Origin: Candidatus Liptonbacteria bacterium RIFCSPLOWO2_01_FULL_56_20
GTDB lineage: Bacteria; Patescibacteriota; Minisyncoccia; UBA6257; 2-01-FULL-56-20
NCBI GenBank assembly: GCA_001818655.1
Contig: MHLC01000022.1
Location: 2,319-34,761, forward strand
Length of the DNA stretch: 32,443 nt
Reading direction: 5' to 3'
How positions within the stretch are numbered: position 1 is the stretch's first letter; each line of letters begins with the position of its first letter. Under the pieces are notes generated by a model. It was not told the origin of the DNA and ran no database searches. It was given only the letters and a program-made list of their open reading frames with translations. This document shows positions 16,500 through 19,451 of this stretch, piece after piece. Made by a program: the position numbers and the translations under genes.

Positions 16500-17621
16500 A
16501 TGCCAAAAGATTACTACAAAATTCTAGGGGTGGAGCGCGGCGCATCCGAGGAAGAGATAAAAAGAGCTTACCGGAAGCTCGCGCACAAGCACCATCCCGA
16601 CAAAACTGGCGGCGACGGGAAAAAATTCAAGGAACTGAACGAGGCGTACCAAGTGCTCTCGGACAAGCAGAAGCGGGCGCAGTATGACCGATTCGGCACC
16701 GCAGAGCCGTTCATGGGGTTCGGCGGCGGCGGCACCGGGCCGTTCTCCGGATTTGATTTCGGGTTCTCCGCAGGAGGCGGGCCCTCTTCGGGCTGGGAAG
16801 GGTTTGACGGCCAGGGATTCCCCGATATGGGCGGTTTGGGTGAGATCTTTGATTCGTTCTTTGAGGGATTGGGAGTGCGCCCGCGCAGGCCCGTATACCG
16901 GCGCGGGTCAGATATCGAGGTGACGCTCGAGATATCGCTTGAAGAAGCGTTCCGCGGCGCGACCAAACCGCTTGCGGTAACGACGCTCACACGCTGCGAG
17001 CGCTGCAAGGGGCAGGGAGGCGACCCTGCCGCGGGGTCAAAAGCGTGCGCGGCGTGCAACGGCCGCGGCGAGGTGCGGGAGGAGCGGCAGACGTTTTTCG
17101 GCAGTTTCGCGCAGGTAAGAACCTGTAGCGCGTGCCGCGGCGCGGGTCAAATCCCGGTGAAGGTCTGCAGCGCGTGCGAGGGGAGCGGCAGGATCTCCGG
17201 CGCGCGCAGCGTGCAGATAGACATCGTGCCGGGCATTGAAGACGGCCAGATCGTAAAGCTAAGCGGTATGGGGGAGGCCGGCGAGCGGGGGACTGGCGCA
17301 GGCGGCCTCTACGTACGCGTGAAGATCCACCCGCACCCGGTGTTCGTGCGCAAAGGAAGCGACCTTATCGTTACCAAGGAACTTAAAGTGGTGGGTCTTT
17401 TGCTCGGTCGGAAAATAGAGGTGCCGACCATAAGCGGCGGGAAAGCGTACGTAGAAATTCCCGCGCATTTCAACCTTAAAGAGAACCTTCGTATCCCCGG
17501 AGAAGGCATGCCGCGGTTCGGCAGTTTTGGCAGGGGAGATCTTTTTGTGAGTTTTATCATTAAGGCGCCCAAGAAAGTGGACGCAAAAATCGCAAAACTG
17601 CTGGAGGAAATGGAGGGATAA
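16500..17621 (+). CDS. dnaJ: Chaperone protein DnaJ
   Basis: [57 protein letters not shown]-rich region, CxxCxGxG zinc repeats ([32 protein letters not shown]). Confidence 0.98.
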
Positions 17622-17682: not shown

Positions 17683-17795
17683 GGTGAATCGGTTTGAACC
17701 TGACGGCGAAGAACCGAGGGCCGCCGCGAGCAAAAGCAGCGGCCCCTTAAAATTTGAAAATTCGTTTATAAGCATATAAAATACGCGTGGAATAT

Positions 17796-18047
17796 GCCCC
17801 GGTAGCTCAGTCTGGTAGAGCAGCTCCCTTTAGGCTTACGCCTCACGGGTTCGCTCATCGAAAATACAAACAGTCTTAATTGTCCGCTTGGTGCCCCCTT
17901 AGCTCAGTCTGGTAGAGCAGCTCCCTTTTAAGGAGACGGTCGTAGGTTCAAATCCTACAGGGGGCACCAAGCGGGGGATATGTTTGTATTCTTTCTTCGC
18001 TGCCCGTGATAAGGAGATGGTCCTAGGTTCGAATCCTAGCCGGGGCA
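17796..18047 (+). tRNA. Interrupted tRNA-Lys(TTT): outer tRNA halves flanking a nested tRNA-Lys
   Basis: 5' half GCCCCGG TA GCTCAGTCTGGTAGAGC A GCTCC CTTT (17796-17831); 3' half TAA GGAGA TGGTC CTAGG TTCGAAT CCTAG CCGGGGC A (18010-18047). Joined halves give the loop CTTTTAA, as in the inner tRNA-Lys. Confidence 0.75.
17893..17969 (+). tRNA. tRNA-Lys(TTT), intact, CCA encoded, nested inside the tRNA at 17796-18047
   Basis: GCCCCCT TA GCTCAGTCTGGTAGAGC A GCTCC CTTTTAA GGAGA CGGTC GTAGG TTCAAAT CCTAC AGGGGGC A CCA. Confidence 0.95.
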
Positions 18048-18091
18048 CAAAGGCGAAGTTTGCTTATTCGTTTTCGTCTCACTGCCATTAC

Positions 18092-18160
18092 TAAGCAGAT
18101 GGTCCCAGGTTCTCGTGCCGGAGGCAGATCCGCCTCCGGCGGAAAATCCTGGCCGGGGGA
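18092..18160 (+). pseudogene. tRNA 3'-half remnant with a palindromic element inserted in its T loop
   Basis: TAAGCAGATGGTC CCAGG TTC-[..GCCGGAGGCAGATCCGCCTCCGGCGGA..]-AAAT CCTGG CCGGGGG A; resembles the 3' half at 18010-18047. Confidence 0.65.
18117..18142. repeat. Short palindromic element in the tRNA remnant
   Basis: GCCGGAGGC-AGATCC-GCCTCCGGC; same family as dnaK 13832-13861. Confidence 0.75.
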
Positions 18161-18209
18161 CAAAAGTGTTCTTGCCAAAATCCTCAAAAATCTGTTAGGA
18201 TAAGTCGCG

Positions 18210-19451
18210 ATGCGGAATCAGCAAGCTTTGTTTCTCGCGCTCATTGCGCTCACCGCGGTTGCCGCCGCGTTTTTCGTGTATCCAGGGTCGCCTTTCGGCA
18301 AATGGCAGCCGTGGCGGCTGGGACTTGACCTTGTGGGCGGGAGCCACCTCGTGTACGGCGTGGATCTTTCGAAAGTCGCGTCTGGAGACCAGGATTCTGT
18401 CTTAAACGGCCTTCGCGACGTGATCGAGCGCCGCGTGAACCTTTTCGGCGTTTCCGAGCCGCAGGTCTATGTCGCGAAATCTGCGGGCGAGTCCCAGCTT
18501 GTCGTAGAGCTCGCGGGCGTCTCTAACATTAGAGACGCCATCCGGCAGATCGGCGAGACCCCGCTCTTGGATTTCCGGGAAGTGGAGCAGGTCGGCTCGA
18601 GCACTATTTTCAACCCCACGAATCTCACGGGCCGCTATATCACAAAAGCAGAACTCACGTTCAATGAGACCACGCAGGCCCCGCAGGTCGCGATCTCTTT
18701 CAATACCGAAGGCGCCGGCATTTTTGAGCGGATGACCGAGGCGAACGTGGGCAAGCCGCTCGCCATATTCCTGGATAATGTGCCGATCGAGATCCCGGTC
18801 GTGCAGGAGAAGATATCGGGCGGCCAGGCAGTCATCAGCGGCAAGTTCACGTTTGACGAGGCGAAACAGCTCGTGGAGCGCTTCAACGCCGGAGCCCTGC
18901 CCGCCCCTATCACGCTTATTGACCAGCTCACTGTTGACCCGAGCTTGGGCGCGGACTCGCTTCGGAAAGCGATACTCGCTGGCGCAATCGGTACGCTTCT
19001 CGTCGTGATATTTATGATCGGCTACTACGGGACATTCGGCGTGTTCGCGTCGCTCGCGCTCGCGATCTATATTTTTCTCACGCTCGGCGTGTTCAAGATC
19101 ATCCCGATCACCTTGAGCTTGGCCGGGCTCGCGGGATTCATCCTCACGATCGGCATGGCGGTTGACGCGAATATCCTTATTTTCGAACGCGTGAAAGAAG
19201 AAACTAAAAAAGGCCTCTCTAAGGTCGCGGCGATACAGGAAGGGTTCCGCAGGGCGTGGCCGTCCATCCGCGATTCGAACACTTCAACCATTATCACCGC
19301 GGTCATCCTGTATTTTTTCACATCGAGCTTTGTCAAAGGGTTTGCGCTCACGCTCTTGGTCGGCGTCCTCGTGAGCATGTTTTCCGCGATCACCACCACG
19401 CGGCTTTTCCTCCGCGTATTTGTCCGCGACCCCACTCGTCCCAACCCCTAA
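18210..19451 (+). CDS. secD: Protein translocase subunit SecD
   Basis: WRLGLDLVGGSHLVYGVD...VIERRVNLFGVSEPQVYV...GFILTIGMAVDANILIFERVKEE. Confidence 0.96.
   Translation: MRNQQALFLALIALTAVAAAFFVYPGSPFGKWQPWRLGLDLVGGSHLVYGVDLSKVASGDQDSVLNGLRDVIERRVNLFGVSEPQVYVAKSAGESQLVVELAGVSNIRDAIRQIGETPLLDFREVEQVGSSTIFNPTNLTGRYITKAELTFNETTQAPQVAISFNTEGAGIFERMTEANVGKPLAIFLDNVPIEIPVVQEKISGGQAVISGKFTFDEAKQLVERFNAGALPAPITLIDQLTVDPSLGADSLRKAILAGAIGTLLVVIFMIGYYGTFGVFASLALAIYIFLTLGVFKIIPITLSLAGLAGFILTIGMAVDANILIFERVKEETKKGLSKVAAIQEGFRRAWPSIRDSNTSTIITAVILYFFTSSFVKGFALTLLVGVLVSMFSAITTTRLFLRVFVRDPTRPNP

Follow-up and report, generated by a model that had tools for sequence, protein, structure and literature searches.

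Structure of the nested tRNA-Lys locus

The subject of this analysis is a 32,443-nucleotide stretch of contig MHLC01000022.1 from Candidatus Liptonbacteria bacterium RIFCSPLOWO2_01_FULL_56_20 (hereafter, the window), in which one tRNA-Lys gene lies inside the anticodon loop of another, and the hairpin element to which the intervening DNA belongs. The source assembly (G000; Patescibacteria, Candidate Phyla Radiation, CPR) is 648 kb long and 97.5% complete. The nest is located between dnaJ (16500-17621, + strand) and secD (18210-19451, + strand), and all its parts are read on the + strand. The 5′ half of the outer tRNA-Lys extends from the acceptor start to CTTT (17796-17831), and the 3′ half from TAA GGAGA to the discriminator A (18010-18047). 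Once these halves are joined, ARAGORN recognizes a tRNA-Lys(ttt) whose 7-bp acceptor stem and T stem are both perfect. The insert contains a complete tRNA-Lys(UUU) with encoded CCA (17893-17969), called tRNA-Lys(TTT) by both ARAGORN and Rfam, which find no other tRNA there. This inner gene is the sole Lys-UUU among the ARAGORN-called tRNAs of G000, and a Lys-CUU gene is present elsewhere in the assembly.

The arms of the insert form a series of nested helices. At the 5′ junction, there is a small hairpin, AGGC-TTAC-GCCT (P1, 17832-17843), a position held in relatives by hairpins of other sequence. It is followed by P2, formed by TCACGGG (17843-17849) and CCCGTGA (18003-18009), an internal loop with TTCGCTC on its 5′ side (17850-17856) and TCGCTG on its 3′ side (17997-18002), P3 (AATACAAACA, 17863-17872, with TGTTTGTATT, 17981-17990), and finally P4, in which the leader of the inner tRNA (CCGCTTGGT, 17884-17892) pairs with ACCAAGCGG (17966-17974). 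The three helices and the junction hairpin had all been named in the first-pass annotation of this DNA and are indeed present. The fold of 17796-18047 (252 bases), which that annotation proposed to compute, is better than those of all 200 dinucleotide shuffles (z = -6.0), much of this being supplied by the two tRNAs. A promoter-like site, TTGAAA and TAAAAT separated by 17 nt, lies upstream of the outer 5′ half (17754-17782), as identified by a consensus scan only.

The nest had been described as consisting of two layers. That description missed an older, outermost third layer at 18058-18162, which comprises a decayed element 3′ end (TTTTCGTCTCACTGCCATTAC, 18058-18091) and a third tRNA-Lys 3′ half, also decayed, into which a palindrome has been inserted at the T-loop (18092-18162); its local alignment score is 28, compared with a best score of 16 in 2000 shuffles. 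The palindrome at this T-loop (18116-18143) is a dispersed one, GCCGGAGGCAGATCCGCCTCCGGC, also found in contig C15 of G000 and in genome G019.

With introns allowed (17701-18300), ARAGORN calls the locus a tRNA-Leu(tag) with a 176-base intron. Such calls are a likely source of wrong annotation and a caution for annotators.

Recurrence of the nest

A DNA search of 101 relatives returned loci of the same anatomy, with the same features seen in Ca. Liptonbacteria, Harrisonbacteria, Parcubacteria and Vogelbacteria. A strict pattern, consisting of the 5′ motif of the element, AAA and then a tRNA D-arm, detected the nest in 14 of the 244 genomes of the order, representing 13 genera, with 0 in the reversed control, and in 4 of 384 genomes of a class sample. 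Because the pattern is strict, these counts are lower bounds, and further nests beyond it were found by reading (G003, G004, G006, G017 and G024). Across the 14 nested loci, which have 13 distinct P2 sequences, pairing is kept at 67 of the 70 P2 positions, so the complementarity cannot be due to chance; misassembly is ruled out as well, given that independent assemblies, two tRNA-Lys subtypes and tRNA-Ile share the anatomy.

The tRNA-Ile(GAU) gene is nested in the same manner in three genomes (G009, G006 and a Ca. Vogelbacteria contig), and G009 contains three separate nests, of Lys-CTT, Lys-TTT and Ile-GAT. Inner tRNA and shell share one isotype in each nest examined. Double nests, with two layers around one intact tRNA, are present in G074 (Ca. 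Harrisonbacteria) and in G006. Two loci retain only the 3′ shell (L003 and L006) and look like products of recombination between two identical 5′ halves, and closely related genomes have plain, shell-less tRNA-Lys genes (L015 and L018).

Two additional observations concern the inner tRNA. Several genera share a second small motif around it, TTGTNYGC..GT before and ACTGYRCGGAA after, as read by eye. In L242 and L239, C1 of the inner tRNA-Lys pairs with G72; the L242 shell and most relatives have G1-C72.

A family of dispersed hairpin elements

The arms of the insert exemplify a more general element composed of P1, P2, the internal loop TTCGCTC/TCGCTG and P3. Among 40 sites retrieved from the genomes by the 5′ motif of the element, there are many hairpins without a tRNA that share this layout from P1 to P3. 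In the 18 such copies that were aligned, the 5′ TTCGCTC is invariant and the 3′ TCGCTG nearly so, which suggests a specific binding partner for the loop. P2 and P3 covary strongly in these copies: 87% of the cells are paired, two-sided change is observed in 16 of 21 pairs, and there are 54 two-sided cells compared with 3-12 in slid versions of the alignment. Outside the tRNA, the element matches no Rfam 15 family (cmscan, gathering and permissive thresholds).

A covariance model built from the short, tRNA-less form finds the element in 18 of the 38 family genomes, with up to 11 copies, in 77 of 384 genomes of the class, with up to 12 copies, and in only 8 of 380 genomes of the phylum sample. 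The model overlooks nested copies, and returns zero for G000, because the tRNA lengthens P3. Most copies of the element are tRNA-less; copies lie in both orientations, within tRNA genes as well as beyond them.

The best evidence of mobility comes from genome G578, where near-identical copies whose left and right ends are abrupt (AAT|GAATCC and GCTAAAATAA, respectively) lie at unrelated loci, as is generally expected of a mobile double-hairpin element; by eye, no target duplication is seen. Of 147 distinct candidate cores, 47 have TAA directly after P2, compared with 1.5% in the flanks; the cores were found by lax rules, and the copies are non-independent. The element is found between genes, as a tRNA-less copy in a 23S-5S rRNA spacer (L119, G021:C20:98900-99600), within antisense copies of tRNA-Ile(TAT), at the anticodon loop (L152, L157 and L167), and in the T-loops of tRNA-Ser and tRNA-Tyr fragments that have the intact gene alongside. 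Among the copies examined, none is located inside a tRNA that lacks an intact tRNA of the same type nested within or close by. In two loci of G012 (L134 and L146), the hairpin element lies within a larger repeat bounded by AGAACCCGTC...GACGGGTTCT.

Fate of the outer shells

Joined outer shells adopt a tRNA fold in 6 of the 14 testable loci and fail to do so in the other 8. The folding script took the first offset that folded, and accordingly, the isotypes it printed were not used. The failure is often due to palindromes that occupy the D- or T-loop. Such palindromes are common, with examples in the D-loop (L009, L241, L244 and L080) and in the T-loop (L002, L092, L237, L243, L006, L240 and L091). 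In five loci (L234, L236, L238, L003 and L006), the base at the 3′ junction would alter the anticodon. The D- and T-loops of many shells in relatives thus contain palindromes unrelated to the one at the third tRNA half of the window, as if hairpin loops were preferred palindrome targets.

Overall, inner tRNAs are closer to their own outer tRNAs than to others (permutation p = 5e-5); this similarity was left out of the choice between mechanisms because it is confounded by lineage and gene conversion.

Origin of the nest

Taken together, these observations make it probable that the insert belongs to a mobile-like, non-autonomous kind of double-hairpin DNA element present in Paceibacteria, that the inner tRNA is the working gene, and that the outer halves are a spent shell. 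Under this scenario, an element favouring TAA sites would enter the anticodon loop of a tRNA at the TAA of the loop, and the insertions that survive would be those for which a full tRNA exists at another locus or within the apex of the hairpin. Where the nested gene is tRNA-Lys or tRNA-Ile(GAU), the complete tRNA occupies the apex of P3, and with this copy in place, insertion into a vital tRNA gene would be survivable. Transcription would start at the promoter-like site that precedes the outer 5′ half, ordinary end processing would free the inner tRNA, and the outer shell would later gather palindromes or decay. Because one tRNA repeat lies on either side of the other, homologous recombination between them could build up layers, delete one side or make the inner and outer copies alike; if a nested copy served as the template for repair of a tRNA, a new layer would appear at exactly the same point and always with the cognate tRNA. 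We also entertain, with considerable doubt, a more specific version, a route by which a small element could invade essential RNA genes: in the apex of its own hairpin, the element would hold, or pick up as it inserts, the whole of the gene that it breaks, so that each insertion makes a fresh target and layers accumulate, with an enzyme or RNA recognising the TTCGCTC/TCGCTG loop.

Several facts weigh against the interpretation of the insert as a mobile-like element with a spent shell. The shell in the window is intact, and 6 of the 8 differences between its inner and outer tRNAs amount to three compensatory pairs (6:68, 7:67 and 50:66 in 74-base numbering); therefore, whether before or after nesting, both copies functioned as tRNAs for a period, which a simple recent duplication fails to explain. 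The outer tRNA may still be used here. Furthermore, the inner and outer tRNAs of a nest are always of one isotype, a regularity that random insertion gives no reason to expect. Finally, no mobilising enzyme was found: genes of Y1 transposases occur in 12 of 16 element-rich and in 38 of 60 element-free genomes (Fisher p = 0.55), being absent from G000, present in 5 of 38 family genomes and showing no association with the element, and 25 Y1 genes inspected with ~1.5 kb of flanking sequence contained no clear element.

The first-pass annotation had suggested either an intron-like element carrying a tRNA or a split tRNA whose halves are held together by the helices. The presence of an element with a tRNA is borne out by the present results; its intron-like character and the helix-held split tRNA are not, given that copies are found outside tRNA genes and antisense to tRNAs. 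A new small intron or a split tRNA, such that the outer tRNA-Lys is also made and used, would agree with the perfect tRNA-Lys and the right anticodon obtained by excision in the window, with the three compensated pairs and with a junction that falls exactly in the anticodon loop, as in the case of introns. This explanation is nevertheless difficult to reconcile with the 8 of 14 joined shells that lack a tRNA fold, which also tells against halves held by helices, with the five loci where the anticodon would not be restored, and with the intact relative that accompanies, inside or nearby, each tRNA-disrupting copy examined. Nor do the group I and II models match in the window (Rfam cmscan, gathering and permissive thresholds), a check that the first-pass annotation had proposed. 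That annotation had also named free decay of the outer halves in relatives as the observation that would speak against it; such decay is seen in about half of the relatives, and the halves in the window are still perfect. All things considered, we regard the intron or split tRNA as the least probable of the explanations discussed here.

Another explanation treats the nest as an RNA structure retained to help process or regulate tRNA-Lys, mobility playing no part in it today; one example would be a long helix that a double-strand RNase cleaves ahead of RNase P. The compensatory changes that keep P2 and P3, and the leader and trailer motif of the inner tRNA common to several genera, are compatible with such a structure; still, it appears unlikely, considering that most copies are tRNA-less and dispersed, that close relatives manage with a shell-less tRNA-Lys, and that the shells decay one side at a time. 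A dedicated target-restoring transposon, in which the composite of element and cognate tRNA is the moving unit and homes to the same tRNA gene by means of its own enzyme, would explain the identity of inner and outer isotypes, the constant insertion point and the three separate cognate nests of G009. Here too, we consider the odds to be poor and slightly lower than for a retained structure: no enzyme was seen, the composite was never found outside a cognate tRNA gene, and recombination between tRNA halves could yield the same pattern without any enzyme.

Candidate mobilisers and vehicles

Outside the family, Y1 genes are present in 11 of 12 element-rich genomes, but this apparent link between the element and a Y1/RAYT mobiliser weakened on comparison with the 38 of 60 element-free control genomes (p = 0.09); this candidate is also disfavoured by the palindromes flanking these genes, which are unlike the element. 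Specifically, the RAYT-like Y1 transposase genes of Paceibacteria (L293-L316) are each flanked by their own, different perfect palindromes. A viral vehicle was rejected as well: five exact 18-base matches were obtained in IMG/VR, and the structure is present in none of them. The matches in Rhizobium, Paenibacillus and other genomes in the scan of named genomes also lack the structure and are attributed to chance.

Comparison with known systems

Single-copy tRNA genes are generally regarded as closed to insertion unless the insert is spliced out or one gene end is rebuilt. Here, the cell would keep its tRNA despite an insert in the anticodon loop because a whole copy lies inside that insert. 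Integrative elements that target tRNA genes supply the missing part of the gene such that the host keeps its tRNA. These elements rebuild one half by a Campbell-type crossover, whereas in the nest, a whole extra tRNA is inside the insert, and unlike these elements, the insert is only ~180 bases long and has no integrase gene. Elements of the IS200/IS605 type and their miniature derivatives have hairpin ends and insert beside a short fixed target without target duplication. The G578 copies, with sharp ends, a preference for TAA and no duplication seen by eye, may resemble them in this respect; there is no linked Y1 transposase, and the internal-loop motif and the nested tRNA are foreign to IS200/IS605.

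Among disrupted tRNA genes of archaea, a mobile element has been proposed to have broken a tRNA gene and scattered a fragment; that element is 1.8 kb long and encodes a recombinase, and there is no nesting (PMC3293823). A GTAG or CGTC tag marks bacterial repetitive extragenic palindromes (REPs), and REPs or long inverted repeats border the RAYT genes (PMC3733652). Like REPs, the element described here is a short palindromic repeat of bacterial chromosomes (PMC3733652), but unlike the REP/RAYT case, the RAYT-like genes examined here are flanked by other palindromes and lack the element. The double-hairpin elements of fungal and sponge mitochondria are small, non-coding and dispersed, with stems that show compensatory change and a mode of movement that is unknown (PMC2800124). 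The resemblance to the present family extends to the insertions into genes and the scattered distribution; however, the mitochondrial elements mostly lie between genes or in rRNA and protein genes and do not carry the broken gene in the apex, and no shared internal loop similar to TTCGCTC/TCGCTG has been reported for them (PMC2800124).

In the open-licence literature, we found no description of a tRNA gene nested in a tRNA gene. None of the nearest kinds (mitochondrial double-hairpin elements, REPs and tRNA-targeting integrative elements) carries the broken gene in a hairpin. The family described here is a structured element absent from Rfam and spread through a class of uncultured bacteria; its nests show how a working copy can persist when a hairpin element disrupts a vital gene, and their layers are a natural record of repeated insertion into a gene that ranks among the most conserved.
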